From assembly GCF_000499205.1 (NCBI RefSeq), contig NZ_AWUK01000032.1, positions 1 through 64,000 on the forward strand: a DNA stretch of 64,000 nucleotides, written 5' to 3'. Source of the DNA: Paenibacillus sp. MAEPY2 (GTDB taxonomy: Bacteria > Bacillota > Bacilli > Paenibacillales > Paenibacillaceae). How positions within the stretch are numbered: position 1 is the stretch's first letter; each line of letters starts with the position of its first letter. The position numbers and the translations under genes were made by a program. The notes under the pieces were generated by a model, which worked only from the letters and a program-made list of their open reading frames with translations, was not told the origin of the DNA and did no database searches. Below are positions 11,136-16,578 of the stretch, piece after piece.

Positions 11136-11168
11136 GTTATACTAAGGTTCACATGTATGGGGCAATAT

Positions 11169-11224
11169 TAAAAAGGGGTGTTTGGTGAACAGCTAGCTGT
11201 TCTTACCAAGCACCCTTTTAATAT
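11169..11224. terminator. bidirectional terminator between asnB and the STM4011-4015 operon
   Basis: A long stem: AAAAGGGGTGTTTGGT pairs with ACCAAGCACCCTTTT around an inner AACAGCT/AGCTGTT hairpin. T-rich tails exist on both strands. Confidence 0.9.
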
Positions 11225-11281
11225 ATAAAATATAAAACCAAAATAATATTCACTTTGAAATTTTGGTTGGAGGCCTTCCGC

Positions 11282-12145
11282 CTATCCATGGATTGCAGCT
11301 GGATTTCGTTCAAGCAATCCACTGCCAAAGATATCTCTGAACGGTGTATCCTCCATATGAATATAACCGATGTAACAGCCACACTTCTTCATGCCACAAG
11401 GGCGATCTGCTGCTAAAGCTTCCAAACCATCGCGGTATAAATGTCCTAAGATCCGACGATCTTTATAACATCTTTTTACATGCCCTGACCCTTGCACATA
11501 AAATACCTGCGAACCAGCGGAACAGCGCTTGCCCAAGCTATCGTAATCCTGCAAATTCCCTTCAAACAGCGGGTCAATCGACCGTAAAAAGGCGACCTCA
11601 TCTACGGTGTAATACTTCGGTCGATCTTTAAAGGCATTGATCCACATATACACATCTTCGGGTAAAGCCTGCCTCATCGATTCAATGGCCGGAAATGCAC
11701 TGCGCAATCCAACCGTCCCCACACTAAAAGCAAGCCCCATCTCACGTAAAGTCAAACATTGTTTGACAAAGGAAGACTCCTTCGTCTCACGTGGGTGATA
11801 GGTCGCCCAAAATGCCGCTTTCTGATGATTCAATTCACGGGCCCAGTCCAGTTTGACAGATAAATTGGTTTGGACTGCAATTTTGTCCACATGCGGCATA
11901 TGTGACAGCTCTATCATGGCGTCCCGGTACCAGCGACGTACCAGGGCTTCTCCATACGGGTTAAAGAAAATCGAAAATTGATGTCCTGCGTTCTCCTGTT
12001 CACCCACCCAATTCACAAATTGACGAAGTTGTTGTTCATCCACTTCCAGCGTCTCCTTGGAATCTACCGTTTTGCTAAACGGGCAGTAGGGGCAGTCGTA
12101 ATTACAGGACGACAGCTTGCCCCGATAATACAAGGTTGCTCTCAT
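11282..12145 (-). CDS. STM4011 family radical SAM protein
   Basis: 287 residues. A CxxxCxxC motif very near the N-terminus (C14, C18, C21; CNYDCPYC) should bind the SAM-cleaving 4Fe-4S cluster. The C-terminal third has a second Cys set (RCSAG, KRCY, PCGMKKCGCY) that looks like a SPASM/twitch-type auxiliary cluster, typical of peptide- or protein-modifying radical SAM enzymes. Length and architecture fit the family named after Salmonella STM4011. Its ATG overlaps the STM4012 stop by four bases (ATGA), so it is translationally coupled. Last gene of a five-gene operon. Reaction and substrate are unknown. Confidence 0.9.
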   Translation of the reverse strand: MRATLYYRGKLSSCNYDCPYCPFSKTVDSKETLEVDEQQLRQFVNWVGEQENAGHQFSIFFNPYGEALVRRWYRDAMIELSHMPHVDKIAVQTNLSVKLDWARELNHQKAAFWATYHPRETKESSFVKQCLTLREMGLAFSVGTVGLRSAFPAIESMRQALPEDVYMWINAFKDRPKYYTVDEVAFLRSIDPLFEGNLQDYDSLGKRCSAGSQVFYVQGSGHVKRCYKDRRILGHLYRDGLEALAADRPCGMKKCGCYIGYIHMEDTPFRDIFGSGLLERNPAAIHG

Positions 12146-13539
12146 GAGAACACAAACCCTTCCATTTGTTCACGAACCTCAGCGGAGATGAGCCAATCTC
12201 CAATGGCATCCGAGTAGCCCAATCCCTCTTCTGTCAGATGCAGCACTTGGTTACCCTCGCTGTCCTGCCCAAGCTCAGCCATGCCTTCAGATAGCAATTC
12301 ACTCAACCATCCGTAGTCTGACATAACTTCCGTCCCGAATCGCTGATCATAATCCGACAGTGCCAATCCTTCCCGATGCAGCAAGGCTTTCAGAATAAAG
12401 CGACGTTTCTGCTCCTCCCGGCTCAAGACAATACCGTAATCGGCCACATCATAGCGCTCGGTCGCCACATAATCAGCAATGATGCTTTGTGTGGCCTTAT
12501 AACTCACACCATACTTGGAAGCATAGTGTACTTCACTGGTATACGAGCGCGCACCGCATCCCAGACCAACCATGCCTTCCTCCTGACAACTGTAGGGCAG
12601 AAGCTCCTTACTGCCAAAAGAAGATTGCTCTTTGGCAAATCTGCGCATGGAATACTGGACATAGCCCCGGCTTTTTAAAGTCTCACGCGCAGCCCTGTAA
12701 AGCTCCATCCGAATATCCGGTCCCTGACGCTGAATATCATCCGGTTTCACAATGGTATTCTCACGGGTGTAGAGCGGATAAATGAAAATCTCACCCGGTT
12801 CATAGGAGAGGACACATTCCAGGGAATACAGCCATGATTCCACCGTTTGTCCCGGCAGCCCATAGATCAGATCCAGATTCAACAAAGGAAATTCAAAACG
12901 CGCAAGTTTCTCAAGCGCGCGTTCCACTTCCTGCGGTTTCTGTGGACGGTAGATCGCAGCGGCTTCCGCTTCAATAAAACTTTGGATGCCCATGCTTACC
13001 CGGTCCACGCTTCGCTCCTTCATGATCGTCAATTTGGCTTCCGTCACGGTATCCGGTGACGTTTCTACCGAGATCGAAGCTTGCGTCGGATCAAGCCCCA
13101 TCACCTGTTCCGCAATATCAAACAAGCGGTTCAACTGAATTTCATTCAATAATGTGGGTGTCCCACCACCGATGGCAAACCTCGAATAGGGTCTGCGTGA
13201 AGTGAGTGGTGCCCACTGCTTGGCTTGCCGTTCCAGCGCATCCACATAACGTACATGGGTGTCATCACGGCGATCCGGCAGCGTAAACAAATTGCAAAAT
13301 CCGCAACGAGCGGCACAAAACGGAATGTGCATATATAAAAAATACGTATCGGTATTCTCACGTTCCCACAACGGACCGAGCGGTAACGGCGGGTTCAAGT
13401 CCCGATATGCGGTCTTGTGGGGATACGAATATAAATAAGAGCGATAGGGTGAAGCAAGCACTTCTCTAAGACTGGTAGCTGTATTAGAGCCGGACTGTGC
13501 GGAATGACCTGCTGTCGTATGTTGAGATTGATCGTCCAT
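12142..13539 (-). CDS. STM4012 family radical SAM protein (HemN/HemW-like)
   Basis: 465 residues. The HemN-like signature MHIPFCAARCGFC places cluster cysteines at C75, C79 and C82; the next-but-one cysteine that defines true coproporphyrinogen dehydrogenase is absent (CNLF follows). Further HemN-type segments are AIGGGTPTLL and DLIYGLPGQTVESW. So it is a HemN-fold enzyme but unlikely to make haem. Start: the frame is open from 13587, but GGGAGGAA lies four bases before the ATG at 13539, which is used. It is preceded by STM4013 with a 53-base gap and coupled to STM4011 by ATGA overlap. Family assignment is from architecture and neighbours; function unknown. Confidence 0.9.
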   Translation of the reverse strand: MDDQSQHTTAGHSAQSGSNTATSLREVLASPYRSYLYSYPHKTAYRDLNPPLPLGPLWERENTDTYFLYMHIPFCAARCGFCNLFTLPDRRDDTHVRYVDALERQAKQWAPLTSRRPYSRFAIGGGTPTLLNEIQLNRLFDIAEQVMGLDPTQASISVETSPDTVTEAKLTIMKERSVDRVSMGIQSFIEAEAAAIYRPQKPQEVERALEKLARFEFPLLNLDLIYGLPGQTVESWLYSLECVLSYEPGEIFIYPLYTRENTIVKPDDIQRQGPDIRMELYRAARETLKSRGYVQYSMRRFAKEQSSFGSKELLPYSCQEEGMVGLGCGARSYTSEVHYASKYGVSYKATQSIIADYVATERYDVADYGIVLSREEQKRRFILKALLHREGLALSDYDQRFGTEVMSDYGWLSELLSEGMAELGQDSEGNQVLHLTEEGLGYSDAIGDWLISAEVREQMEGFVFS

Positions 13540-13592
13540 CAGTTTCCTCCCTGTATCCGGTTTGTAGTTGTTCAAGATATGAACCATTTGTT

Positions 13593-14378
13593 TTATAAAA
13601 TAAATTCACGGTAAGGCACATTCCAGACGACATCATGCGCCAGCCTGTGGCCCTGATAGCCGTCCTCACCATAAGCCGTGCCATGATCGGAAAAAGCAAG
13701 ACAAAACGTAGGCCGTGAACGCTGCCTCATTGCATCAAACAATGGCCCGAGGGCCTCATCCACATACCGAAGCGCTGCACGCTGTGTCTCTACCGAGTCC
13801 TCTCTGGCACCCTCCACAAAATAACGATTGGGTCCATGGATGGCAGACACATTCAGGAACAGAAACAGCTTCTCATCCGGTGCGCTCTGCTCCAGCAGCT
13901 TCAGGGCATGCTGAACCTGATGCTCGGTCGATTTGGGATTGGTTACCCCAAAGTTCATCCGCCAGTAGCTCTGCTGGAAATAACCCGGCAGCACTTTGGC
14001 GAGCGGATTTTTCTTGGTGAAGAAAATGACCCCGCCAATACAGATCGTACGGTACCCTTCAGCAGCGAACCCGGATACGATATCCTGTGTGTCGAACAGC
14101 CAGGTATGCGGATGAGTCTTTAATCCGGTATTCCGGGAATGAAAAAGTCGCACATGGGAGGCTTTGTCCGTATTGGCAGGTGTAGGCATGAAGCCGCCAA
14201 AAAAGGCATGATGTGCCGCATACGTAAAACTTCCCGGTGTATGACGCTGCTCCCAGGAACCCGAGCCGCACAGGTTGGGGCAATTCTGTTCCTCCAGCTT
14301 TGCCACGTCATACCTCAACGTGTCCAGCGTAATCATTAACAGATCATGGGAGCCTACGATGGTGTTCATATCAGGCAT
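13593..14378 (-). CDS. STM4013/SEN3800 family hydrolase (alkaline phosphatase fold)
   Basis: 261 residues. The N-terminal MITLDTLRYDVA carries a metal-ligand Asp19 and a Thr20 in the nucleophile position. The C-terminal SDHGTAYG (D231, H232) and GHRLAH supply the other metal ligands of alkaline-phosphatase/sulfatase-superfamily enzymes. No signal peptide, so it acts in the cytoplasm, presumably on a phospho- or sulfo-ester or phosphonate made or consumed by this pathway. The chosen ATG (14378) overlaps the end of STM4014 by eight bases; GAAAGGGG lies ten bases upstream. An upstream in-frame start at 14429 would overlap STM4014 by ~59 bases and has no ribosome-binding site. Confidence 0.88.
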   Translation of the reverse strand: MPDMNTIVGSHDLLMITLDTLRYDVAKLEEQNCPNLCGSGSWEQRHTPGSFTYAAHHAFFGGFMPTPANTDKASHVRLFHSRNTGLKTHPHTWLFDTQDIVSGFAAEGYRTICIGGVIFFTKKNPLAKVLPGYFQQSYWRMNFGVTNPKSTEHQVQHALKLLEQSAPDEKLFLFLNVSAIHGPNRYFVEGAREDSVETQRAALRYVDEALGPLFDAMRQRSRPTFCLAFSDHGTAYGEDGYQGHRLAHDVVWNVPYREFIL

Positions 14379-15735
14379 GGTTGTAAGGCCCCTTTCGCAA
14401 AAGTTCCATTTCCCATTCATACGTTCCAAGTCCGTTATGCTGTACTCTGTACAACAAATCTCCGAACGGATTCACATCCAGAACATAAGAGCGGGGCTCA
14501 GTGCCACTACTGAGCATCACATCAATACCAGCAGACCATGAGTTGGGAAAGGCAGCCATCGCCGCTTTTGCTGCCGTCTGAACCCGTTCCATCTGCTGTC
14601 CATCCAGCCCCGCTTCTGCGGGCAGCAACCGCTCATTGCGCAAATGCAGATTGGTGATCGGTGTCTGACTAAGCCGTACGACGGCATGACCTGCTTGTCC
14701 GCCCGCCACAAGCTGGCGGATATCAAACACGCTTGAACCCAGGGACGCTTTGGCCATCCAGCGTTCAATCTGGGCACCCTCAGCACACAGCCAATCCATG
14801 AGCGCTGAAATCTCCGAAGTACGTGTGTACCTGCGCATCCGGCCTTCATTGTAAAATATGGTCTTTCCCAGAACTTCTTCCATTCCCACAGTGGTTATGG
14901 CAATTTCAGCACCCGTTCGGGGATTAATTTGATAGGCAACAACGCCTGAAGCCCCGGAACCACACGCTAGCTTCACGAAAACGCGATTCATACCGGCTGT
15001 CTTCATTGCGATACGAAGCTCGGCAGCGTTTCTGTTCGGCTCCGAAGAGGGGAGCATTGGAGGGATCTGAACCCCGTGTGAGTTTAGATGCTGCTGGCAT
15101 TTCCTTTTATCAAACATGATCGCAATGTCATCGGGATCATTCATGAACCGGGCATTGGGCCAATATTCCCGCGCTTCACGGCCGATTCGTTCCAAACATG
15201 CCTTCCAACCACGAAACCATTGACCAGGGGCGTGGATTCGCCCCCAATCCTGTTCAAGAACGAGTGTCTGTTCTGCCGAAATCACGCTTGCAGAAGTACC
15301 ATCCTTTAACTGAGCTGTATCACTCCCAGCTCCAAGAAAGAGCAGCTCACGCTCCACCTCCCATTCCTCACCAGGAGCATCCACTCGAATAAGAGGTATG
15401 TTAATTGCTCCGTGAACTGAATCATGATACGCATATGACATCGAAACTGATGAAGATAGCCACGGCGCTACGTTCGTGTGCGTAGTCCCTCGCCCTCTCA
15501 GACATTGCTGTAAGGCATCCGCTATAGTACCGCCCTGTCTCCAAGTCTGTAGCAACCGAGCATAAGGCAGCACAAGTGCAGGTTGTAAGCCAAGGCGCTG
15601 TCTTGCCTCCTGTAATCCAAGGGTACGACGATTGTTCGGGTTTCCAATTAACAATAACGGCTGCTCCAGAGTTTTATTCGAATCCTTCAATGGGCGTTGC
15701 AAATGATGTTCCATCTCCGTCATGCCTGACATCAT
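14371..15735 (-). CDS. STM4014 family protein, ATP-grasp-like
   Basis: 454 residues, soluble. The C-terminal two-thirds read like an ATP-grasp enzyme: a probable ATP-binding strand-loop FVKLACGSGASGVVAY near the middle and a C-terminal metal-binding DVNPFGDLLYRV (Asp and Asn ligands). ATP-grasp ligases join a carboxylate to an amine or thiol through an acyl phosphate, so a ligase step in the pathway is a reasonable inference. The ATG at 15735 directly abuts the STM4015 stop codon (TAAATG), and the protein's end overlaps STM4013. The start is uncertain: several Met codons (15735, 15732, 15723, 15714) lie close together with only weak ribosome-binding sites, so coupling by re-initiation is likely. 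Confidence 0.85.
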   Translation of the reverse strand: MMSGMTEMEHHLQRPLKDSNKTLEQPLLLIGNPNNRRTLGLQEARQRLGLQPALVLPYARLLQTWRQGGTIADALQQCLRGRGTTHTNVAPWLSSSVSMSYAYHDSVHGAINIPLIRVDAPGEEWEVERELLFLGAGSDTAQLKDGTSASVISAEQTLVLEQDWGRIHAPGQWFRGWKACLERIGREAREYWPNARFMNDPDDIAIMFDKRKCQQHLNSHGVQIPPMLPSSEPNRNAAELRIAMKTAGMNRVFVKLACGSGASGVVAYQINPRTGAEIAITTVGMEEVLGKTIFYNEGRMRRYTRTSEISALMDWLCAEGAQIERWMAKASLGSSVFDIRQLVAGGQAGHAVVRLSQTPITNLHLRNERLLPAEAGLDGQQMERVQTAAKAAMAAFPNSWSAGIDVMLSSGTEPRSYVLDVNPFGDLLYRVQHNGLGTYEWEMELLRKGPYNHA

Positions 15736-16578
15736 TTATTCCGTTAACGACGGGTAACGCCAGTCATCTTCATCACTCTGTTGTTGCTCGCTGACATCTA
15801 CAGATATGCCAGAACGTTTCCAGCGAATGAGCATTTCGTCCGTCATGTAGTGGTAACTAAGATTAAGATGCTTAAGTTTTTTGATCTTGTCACTGGCAAG
15901 CAGCGCTTCGGCCCCTTCATCAGACAACGTGCCCTCCGACAGATCAAGGACTTCCAGTTGATCCAAAATCGGCGCCTCTGCTGCAGCTTTTGCAATCTCA
16001 TCCTGAATCTCACTATCTTTCAGACCCAGGTAGACGAGCTTTGGAAACAAGCCTTGTTCCAAGAATGGAAGTACATCCTGAAGCGAACCATCGAACCCGT
16101 AATCCTCCACACCCAAATATAGTTCAAGTTTGCGCAATTCAGGCAACTTAGCGCGGGCAATTGAAGCTAATACGCCTTGGGGCAGACCACCGCAAATAAT
16201 GATCAATTCTTCAAGTTTGGCATGCTCCATTGGCTCCAGACTTAGTCCGCTGCTGCCCTTTACTGAAAACGACTTCAATTCAGGAAAAGCAACCAGTAGT
16301 GGTGTGAGATCCGTCTGAATAATCCATGATACCTCGCATTCTTCAAAGCCCATATCTCCGATGAACAGTTTCTTCAAGGACGGAAAGCTTGTAGCCAATT
16401 CGGTGAGTGTTCCCAAGAATTCATCCGGCGAATTTTCATAAGCCTGTCCCCAGTCTCCAATAATCAGGCTCTCCAGCGAACCAGCCTCCGGTTTGGCAGC
16501 CAGCTCCCTGATTAACGTTTCCATACGGATACCGTTCTCATAATCATCATAAGACACCGTAAGTTTCACTTCTTGCAT
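15736..16578 (-). CDS. STM4015 family protein, leucine-rich repeats
   Basis: 280 residues. Opens MQEVKLTVSYDDYENG and then shows leucine-rich repeats of the ribonuclease-inhibitor-like type (LESLIIGDWG, LKKLFIGDMG, LEELIIICGG, LEVLDLSEG, LKHLNLSYHYMTDE). No signal peptide or membrane segment. Such a repeat sheet normally binds protein or peptide, so a substrate-recognition or scaffold role in the operon is inferred. Start: the frame is open to 16689, but GGAGGGGAT lies seven bases before the ATG at 16578. First gene of the operon STM4015-4014-4013-4012-4011; the promoter region carries a LexA-like palindrome. Confidence 0.87.
   Translation of the reverse strand: MQEVKLTVSYDDYENGIRMETLIRELAAKPEAGSLESLIIGDWGQAYENSPDEFLGTLTELATSFPSLKKLFIGDMGFEECEVSWIIQTDLTPLLVAFPELKSFSVKGSSGLSLEPMEHAKLEELIIICGGLPQGVLASIARAKLPELRKLELYLGVEDYGFDGSLQDVLPFLEQGLFPKLVYLGLKDSEIQDEIAKAAAEAPILDQLEVLDLSEGTLSDEGAEALLASDKIKKLKHLNLSYHYMTDEMLIRWKRSGISVDVSEQQQSDEDDWRYPSLTE

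Follow-up and report, generated by a model that had tools for sequence, protein, structure and literature searches.

The STM4011–STM4015 operon of Paenibacillus: a putative protein-tail modification system with a leucine-rich-repeat carrier

The operon and its conservation

The STM4011–STM4015 operon described here lies in a 64,000-nucleotide stretch of DNA from Paenibacillus sp. MAEPY2 (contig NZ_AWUK01000032.1), referred to as the window. Five minus-strand genes occupy positions 11282–16578 in the order STM4015-4014-4013-4012-4011, and all of their reading frames are open (Table 1). The genes are adjacent and each product scores above the curated cut-off of its own NCBIfam family, which identifies the set as an STM4011–STM4015 cassette. 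The TAA stop codon of STM4015 (15738–15736) abuts the ATG of STM4014 at 15735, STM4014 and STM4013 (ATG at 14378) overlap by 8 bases, and STM4012 and STM4011 share a 4-base ATGA. The most likely start of STM4012 is the ATG at 13539, which follows a GGAGG; a second in-frame ATG is present at 13587, and the gene ends at 12142. A preliminary description, made from the sequence alone, had listed the same five coupled genes, and its coordinates, the abutment and both overlaps hold. Past STM4011 a strong hairpin lies at 11226–11160 in U-rich surroundings; none of 200 shuffled sequences was as stable, and the hairpin is missing from the output of a consensus terminator scan. On its other side the operon faces a convergent asparagine synthase gene.

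Table 1. Coordinates of the operon and associated features in the window
Feature	Position	Strand	Basis
STM4015, leucine-rich-repeat protein, 280 aa, proposed carrier/substrate	15736..16578	-	NCBIfam, 353 bits
Tail codons, DDWRYPSLTE-COOH, last residue Glu280	15739..15768	-	End conservation across STM4015
STM4014, probable RimK/LysX/ArgX-type ATP-grasp ligase, proposed tail loader	14371..15735	-	NCBIfam, 401 bits
STM4013, alkaline-phosphatase-superfamily phosphodiesterase/phosphotransferase, Thr52 at the nucleophile position	13593..14378	-	NF038075, 398 bits
STM4012, HemN-like radical SAM enzyme, CxxxCxxC without the fourth Cys	12142..13539	-	NF006067, 585 bits
STM4011, radical SAM enzyme, C-terminal cysteines of auxiliary-cluster type	11282..12145	-	NF038073, 398 bits
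Likely intrinsic terminator of the operon	11160..11226	-	Hairpin, -25.2 kcal/mol, z -5.4

The cassette is widespread and its layout is largely conserved. A scan of named genomes with the STM4011 alignment returned at least 537 relatives, and the counts of loci given here refer to the best 80 of these, 56 of which are from Paenibacillus, Saccharibacillus or Paenibacillaceae. The canonical order on one strand is found at 71 of the 80 loci, two of which (L101 and L117) carry one gene in pieces. Twenty-four loci belong to organisms other than the Paenibacillus/Saccharibacillus group, and 15 of them are canonical. The genes are clustered but rearranged at four loci (L099, L106, L107 and L113) and cut by a contig end at four more (L104, L108, L112 and L116); at L109, STM4015 and STM4014 are missing from the stretch examined. 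Scattering of the genes, which would have spoken against a common pathway, is therefore not the rule. There are exceptions to linkage: no STM4014 can be recognised in L109/G112, and in G107, a draft genome, it is on a separate contig. Judged by the titles and taxonomy lines of the records, carriers of the cassette belong to at least ten phyla (Bacillota, Bacteroidota, Acidobacteriota, Pseudomonadota, Cyanobacteriota, Planctomycetota, Lentisphaerota, Verrucomicrobiota, Actinomycetota and Deinococcota), yet its families carry locus names only.

Co-occurrence, suggested in the preliminary description as a check, is strict for three of the five genes. Across 99 genomes, including that of the window, STM4013, STM4014 and STM4015 are all present in 56 and all absent, at the family cut-offs, in 43; one of the 56 (G058) has STM4013 and STM4015 in broken frames that score below the cut-off. 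Among 147 Streptomycetales genomes, STM4015 is over the cut-off in 65 and STM4014 in 63. The additional STM4015 genomes are G359, whose sole match lacks the terminal glutamate described below, and G227, an exception in which that residue is kept. Three protein searches are reported for their best 120 matches (of 475, 2081 and 854); in that for STM4014 (475 matches) the named top relatives are nearly all from Paenibacillus.

The C-terminal tail of STM4015 and its relatives

The most distinctive feature of STM4015 is its C-terminus. In an alignment spanning five phyla all sequences stop at a glutamate, and the tail follows the consensus (W/Y)R(Y/F)xx(V/L/I)(G/S/T)E. A non-redundant set of 25 sequences with less than 60% identity, drawn before the Streptomycetales and planctomycete genomes were added, ends in Glu in every case. 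In the same set position -2 is G, S, T or A in 24 sequences, position -3 is V, L or I in 24, position -6 is Y or F in 23 and position -7 is R in 19, and the last 25 residues have a mean net acidic charge of 5.7. The other proteins of the operon serve as controls: Glu is the last residue in 2 of 35 STM4014, 0 of 13 STM4013, 0 of 23 STM4012 and 0 of 22 STM4011 sequences, and none of these families has a fixed end.

Larger samples agree. All 120 STM4015 homologues among the matches listed, mostly close relatives, end in Glu. Over all loci, 188 of 196 distinct STM4015 open reading frames (ORFs) do so, comprising 171 of 175 that are linked, meaning that the stretch examined has an enzyme gene no more than 6 kb away, and 17 of 21 that are not; this count covers ORFs with a stop codon and above the score threshold, and an overlong ORF was taken to begin at the start codon closest to its profile match. 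Two of the eight other ends belong to frameshift fragments, three are GIGA (one in each of three Streptomycetales arrays) and three are orphans ending in GPLTY. The GIGA-ended array copies (L253:7713-8612, L254:7327-8202 and L255:6567-7442) are candidates for natural unmodified controls. The same genomes also hold weakly similar leucine-rich-repeat (LRR) ORFs, of which 22 were read, not counting the operonic L159 gene. Glu is not the last residue in 20 of these; the remaining two, ending in GDFE and GDME, are both in G107.

A 4-base overlap with the next start codon was considered as a cause of the terminal glutamate. Both codons are used (GAG in 114 genes, GAA in 83), and 112 of 197 STM4015 genes lack such an overlap (only overlaps of 4 bases were counted), so coupling fails to explain the residue. 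The idea that the tail is more conserved than the body within tandem arrays was not supported: the last eight residues of tandem copies are no more alike than the body, and the feature that is kept is therefore the pattern together with the Glu. The AlphaFold 2 model of STM4015 shows the tail as a fairly confident coil, and a solved structure, 2RA8, aligns through to the end of the tail. For the structure work, 8 of the 42 rows of STM4014 and 13 of the 47 rows of STM4015 were omitted.

A glutamate end is also found where STM4014 has a different partner. In the planctomycete G115 its neighbour is an LRR protein with a WGR domain, faintly like STM4015 and ending in YLYMGDME. All 120 homologues listed for this WGR-LRR protein (the best 120 of 854) end in E with D at position -3. 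In one planctomycete order STM4014 is over the cut-off in 14 of 102 genomes, where its partner is a WGR-LRR protein in nine, STM4015 in three, cut by a contig end in one and unclear in one (G195). The nine WGR-LRR partners end in GDYE, GDIE, GDME, GDPE or ADYE (for example YLYEGDYE); in G195 the gene overlapping STM4014 ends in DADDS, and a GDIE end lies just before. A search of 23 genomes with a planctomycete-tail pattern found only the G115 gene adjoining STM4014; the pattern, with ATN codons (I or M) at the second-last position, misses GDYE- and GDFE-like ends. An N-terminal WGR domain is also present in some STM4015 proteins. In a tree of 49 STM4014 sequences the nine with WGR-LRR partners lie on one side of a fully supported branch. 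Ligase lineage is thus associated with tail type, an association compatible both with tail recognition and with common descent.

Tailed proteins also outnumber the enzymes in several genomes. Four Streptomycetales loci carry three or four tandem STM4015 genes followed by a single STM4014-4011 set. In G147 three WGR-LRR genes and a 71-codon C-terminal fragment precede STM4014, all four Glu-ended, and other genomes hold additional unlinked copies of tailed STM4015. Nine Streptomycetales genomes have a reduced locus in which a tailed STM4015 adjoins a divergent STM4014-like gene, the other enzymes being absent from the stretch examined; the two divergent genes compared with Pfam gave no match.

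The enzymes and the neighbouring genes

STM4014 is among the relatives of LysX, ArgX and RimK, ligases whose target is the C-terminal Glu of a protein. Its profile search places LysX and RimK near the top, with near-ties to other ATP-grasps. In the fold comparison the eight closest entries are ArgX with LysW, LysX/ArgX with loaded LysW, LysX, and RimK alone or with S6; N5-CAIR synthetase, GshB and D-Ala-D-Ala ligase are almost as close.

STM4013 was previously described as an alkaline-phosphatase-fold hydrolase. The fold stands, and the assignment can be sharpened. The best profile matches are nucleotide pyrophosphatase/phosphodiesterases (NPPs), and D19, T52, H181, D231, H232 and H248 are conserved, Thr52 in all 106 ungapped rows of 109. 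The STM4013 profile applied in the scripted searches excludes the L035 row. The protein also scores 44.2 against Pfam Sulfatase (cut-off 25). Formylglycine sulfatases carry a Cys or Ser nucleophile within the sulfatase signature, and STM4013 has Thr52 instead. For this protein the label of an NPP-like phosphodiesterase fold, with Thr at the nucleophile position, is more apt than that of a sulfatase.

Homologues of STM4013 also occur away from the cassette. On Streptomyces albidoflavus and Kitasatospora plasmids (L035:6860-10309 and L038:6819-10238) a stand-alone homologue belongs to a five-gene cluster with a MoaA-like radical S-adenosylmethionine (SAM) protein that has weak viperin matches, a dTMP-kinase-like protein, a protein of ~160 amino acids without a recognised family and a NUDIX hydrolase. 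These partners weakly hint at a nucleotide-like substrate for STM4013. Agrobacterium Ti plasmids (L036:9118-9864) encode a distant STM4013-like protein of sulfatase fold with ~26% identity. On a Bacteroides finegoldii plasmid (L039:6322-7887) STM4011 runs on into a HAD-like stretch, and the STM4013 match covers the first fifth only.

The two radical SAM enzymes differ in their cysteines. STM4012 has the CxxxCxxC motif and, as noted in the preliminary description, a HemN-type fold that lacks the fourth Cys. Its profile matches include HemN (1OLT) and the methyltransferase NocN (9P2U), and it falls below the family cut-offs of both HemW (157 against 205.4 bits) and HemN (140.5 against 324.95). 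Among the PADLOC models of anti-phage systems it has only a partial 41-bit match, to the candidate PDC-M51A, and the other four proteins have no match. In STM4011, C14, C18, C21, C208, C226, C250, C255 and C257 are kept in all 87 rows. The SPASM motif reads CX9-15GX4C ... CX2CX5CX3C ... C. The earlier label 'SPASM-like' is right insofar as the C-terminal region is SkfB-like, with five conserved Cys; the full motif is absent, the GX4C part being present and the second part reading CX4CXC, with all of those Cys invariant. Loss of cluster cysteines or metal residues, which would have counted against a working pathway, is not seen in the family alignments.

A short conserved precursor gene near homologous loci, for which the preliminary description suggested a search, was not recovered: in the 1.5 kb around each of 33 loci, the only short ORF shared between phyla is a partner of DUF6745 of ~100 amino acids (six loci). 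This search compared short ORFs with each other by BLAST at E 0.01, a setting that very diverged peptides could escape. Apart from that partner, the 12 groups shown contain just pairs that join L098 and L100, which are near relatives. No recurrent release peptidase adjoining the operon was recognised.

DUF6745 is linked to the operon in 9 of 30 diverse loci. It was found in 8 of 23 genomes searched, and by our reading 7 of these 8 keep it near the operon or near STM4015-family genes. DUF6745 proteins stand beside the operon in several phyla (L032:5489-6814, L033:4719-6341, L034:11994-13291, L108, L113, L114 and L117). They mostly end in (E/Q)T, and the adjoining protein of ~100 amino acids shows, by eye, GHxH and HEEH/HDEH motifs. 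DUF6745 was left out of the core of the system, as the conserved (E/Q)T end is also present in unlinked copies in G121.

Some copies of the cassette are found in plasmid records. An STM4013-like match occurs in 26 of these, nine of which were inspected. Five contain the full cassette (L031–L034 and L037), the Bacteroides record L039 has no intact STM4013, L035 and L038 carry the stand-alone cluster, and the Ti plasmid L036 the distant relative. In L031 (7047-12638), an Infantis plasmid record, the Salmonella cassette is flanked by sulfoquinovose-type genes on one side and typA/glnA on the other, and STM4011 is followed by a Cof-type HAD gene. In the tree the STM4014 of this cassette clusters with the Bacteroides one. 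A phage collection holds Salmonella-type STM4013 in three records, two of them unannotated and 2–6 kb long and the third a serovar Infantis assembly record. Viral contigs, searched for STM4012 only, gave five pattern matches with no relative among them.

Proposed mechanism, alternatives and known systems

The conserved tail, the replacement of one LRR family by another with the Glu end kept, the linkage of the genes, the conserved residues and the folds together suggest that the operon is probably a protein-tail modification system, in which STM4015 is an LRR carrier, its Glu-ended tail the substrate and STM4014 the loader, with the other enzymes elaborating the attached group. The tandem carriers, the likeness of STM4014 to LysX and RimK, the nine reduced loci and the lack of a recurring separate short precursor in the search above also favour this reading. 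The general idea of a modification pathway, put forward in the preliminary description, is supported, as are its parts list and the coupling. The peptide-binding role given there to the LRR protein is probably wrong, its own conserved tail being the likeliest substrate.

The individual reactions are what we infer from folds, partners and the tail. STM4014 would activate the terminal Glu of STM4015 with ATP and join an amine-bearing unit to it. STM4011 and STM4012 might next act on the attached unit, on the neighbouring (W/Y)R(Y/F) residues or on both, and STM4013, with a HAD phosphatase in some lineages, could remove or transfer a phosphate-linked part. No recurrent release peptidase was recognised, so the product may remain on STM4015, leaving an 'armed' or cofactor-bearing recognition protein. 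A more speculative extension, for which we hold only modest expectations, is that covalent arming extends to a widespread class of LRR recognition proteins. Each genome would have one enzyme set serving several LRR carriers that differ in specificity (the tandem arrays, the unlinked copies, the two LRR families and perhaps the DUF6745 proteins with their own conserved end), and their terminal Glu would receive a group made by radical SAM chemistry, coupling repeat recognition to a shared warhead, cofactor or signal.

Conserved C-terminal peptides also act as docking motifs. The four enzymes might make a free small metabolite, with the STM4015 tail serving as a non-covalent dock or latch in STM4014 or another enzyme, in an allosteric or scaffolding role. 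Both the fairly confident coil in the model and the closeness of STM4014 to small-molecule ATP-grasps would fit. However, this is rather unlikely, as docking offers no ready account of a second LRR family whose tail differs and yet has Glu as its last residue, nor of the multiplication of the LRR gene in tandem beside single enzymes. Retention of the Glu for stability alone, as protection from C-terminal proteolysis or for folding of the last repeat, would also suit the confident coil and the alignment of 2RA8 to the tail end. It is scarcely credible given that 20 of the 22 weakly similar LRR proteins end otherwise, and it is not obvious why stability should favour two distinct motifs, both with Glu at the end, next to one kind of ligase.

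Other alternatives redistribute the enzymes. STM4014 alone could act on STM4015, adding one or more amino acids in the manner of RimK as a regulatory mark, while the radical SAM and phosphodiesterase enzymes use another substrate. RimK is among its closest sequences and folds, and the nine reduced loci consist of STM4015 and an STM4014-like gene only. However, the five-gene order of 71 of the 80 loci and the all-or-none occurrence of three of the five genes make this improbable. The parts also resemble those of a pathway for ribosomally synthesized and post-translationally modified peptides, with two radical SAM enzymes (one with an SkfB-like C-terminal part) and an ATP-grasp; SPASM radical SAM enzymes are reported in ATP-grasp peptide loci (PMC8939145). 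A short precursor would then be encoded elsewhere, with STM4015 binding it or recognising its leader, which is close to the earlier suggestion. The short-ORF search described above argues against it, and it leaves the invariant end of STM4015 without explanation, so that we consider it quite improbable.

If tail modification is correct, STM4015 is a carrier on which the enzymes act and not a bystander, and 2RA8 (Q64V53_BACFR), a solved structure of unassigned function that aligns with STM4015 to the tail end, acquires a role. A single mass-spectrometry experiment on a protein of 280 residues would then identify the chemistry of a large orphan pathway, provided that the tail is the substrate. 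In the open-licence literature no functional study of STM4011–STM4015 was found under the forms of the family names tried, nor any paper that names 2RA8 or describes a system combining LRR, radical SAM and ATP-grasp proteins. STM4015 appears as one table row in PMC2784778 and STM4013 as one row of a binding-site table in PMC3844500; neither is built on here.

Among the closest known systems are those of amino-group carriers (LysW with LysX/ArgX, and Vzb22), whose ATP-grasps probably belong to the same structural group as STM4014 (3VPB, 5K2M and 3VPD). According to PMC9303977, these carriers are loaded via the gamma-carboxylate of a C-terminal Glu, and STM4015 likewise has an acidic, Glu-ended tail. 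STM4015 differs in being an LRR protein of 280 residues with another tail motif, WRYPSLTE. A LysW-type carrier is a small globular domain that ends in EDWGE, and its neighbours are a kinase, a reductase, an aminotransferase and a deacylase. None of these was recognised among the families that recur within 6 kb of 30 diverse STM loci, where most unnamed ORFs were only clustered by sequence. In the STM4015 operon the proposed carrier is accompanied by radical SAM enzymes and a phosphodiesterase, at times also by a HAD phosphatase, and one operon can have several carriers.

RimK adds Glu at the C-terminus of ribosomal protein S6, a likeness to the role proposed for STM4014, which shares its ligase fold; here the acceptor would be an LRR protein of the same operon, and further tailoring enzymes are present. 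STM4011 resembles SPASM maturases such as SkfB (6EFN) in its C-terminal region and differs from them in lacking the full motif and a detectable short precursor. Pearlins (TglA and TmoA), as described in PMC9303977, also build their product at the C-terminus of a ribosomal carrier and include a radical SAM step. However, no PEARL is among the families identified at the STM loci, which have an ATP-grasp instead and a folded repeat protein as the proposed carrier. Protein-carrier chemistry is known in kind, and an LRR carrier with such an enzyme set is not among the cases found; if the proposal holds, carrier-based biosynthesis extends from small proteins such as LysW and peptide carriers to folded leucine-rich-repeat proteins.

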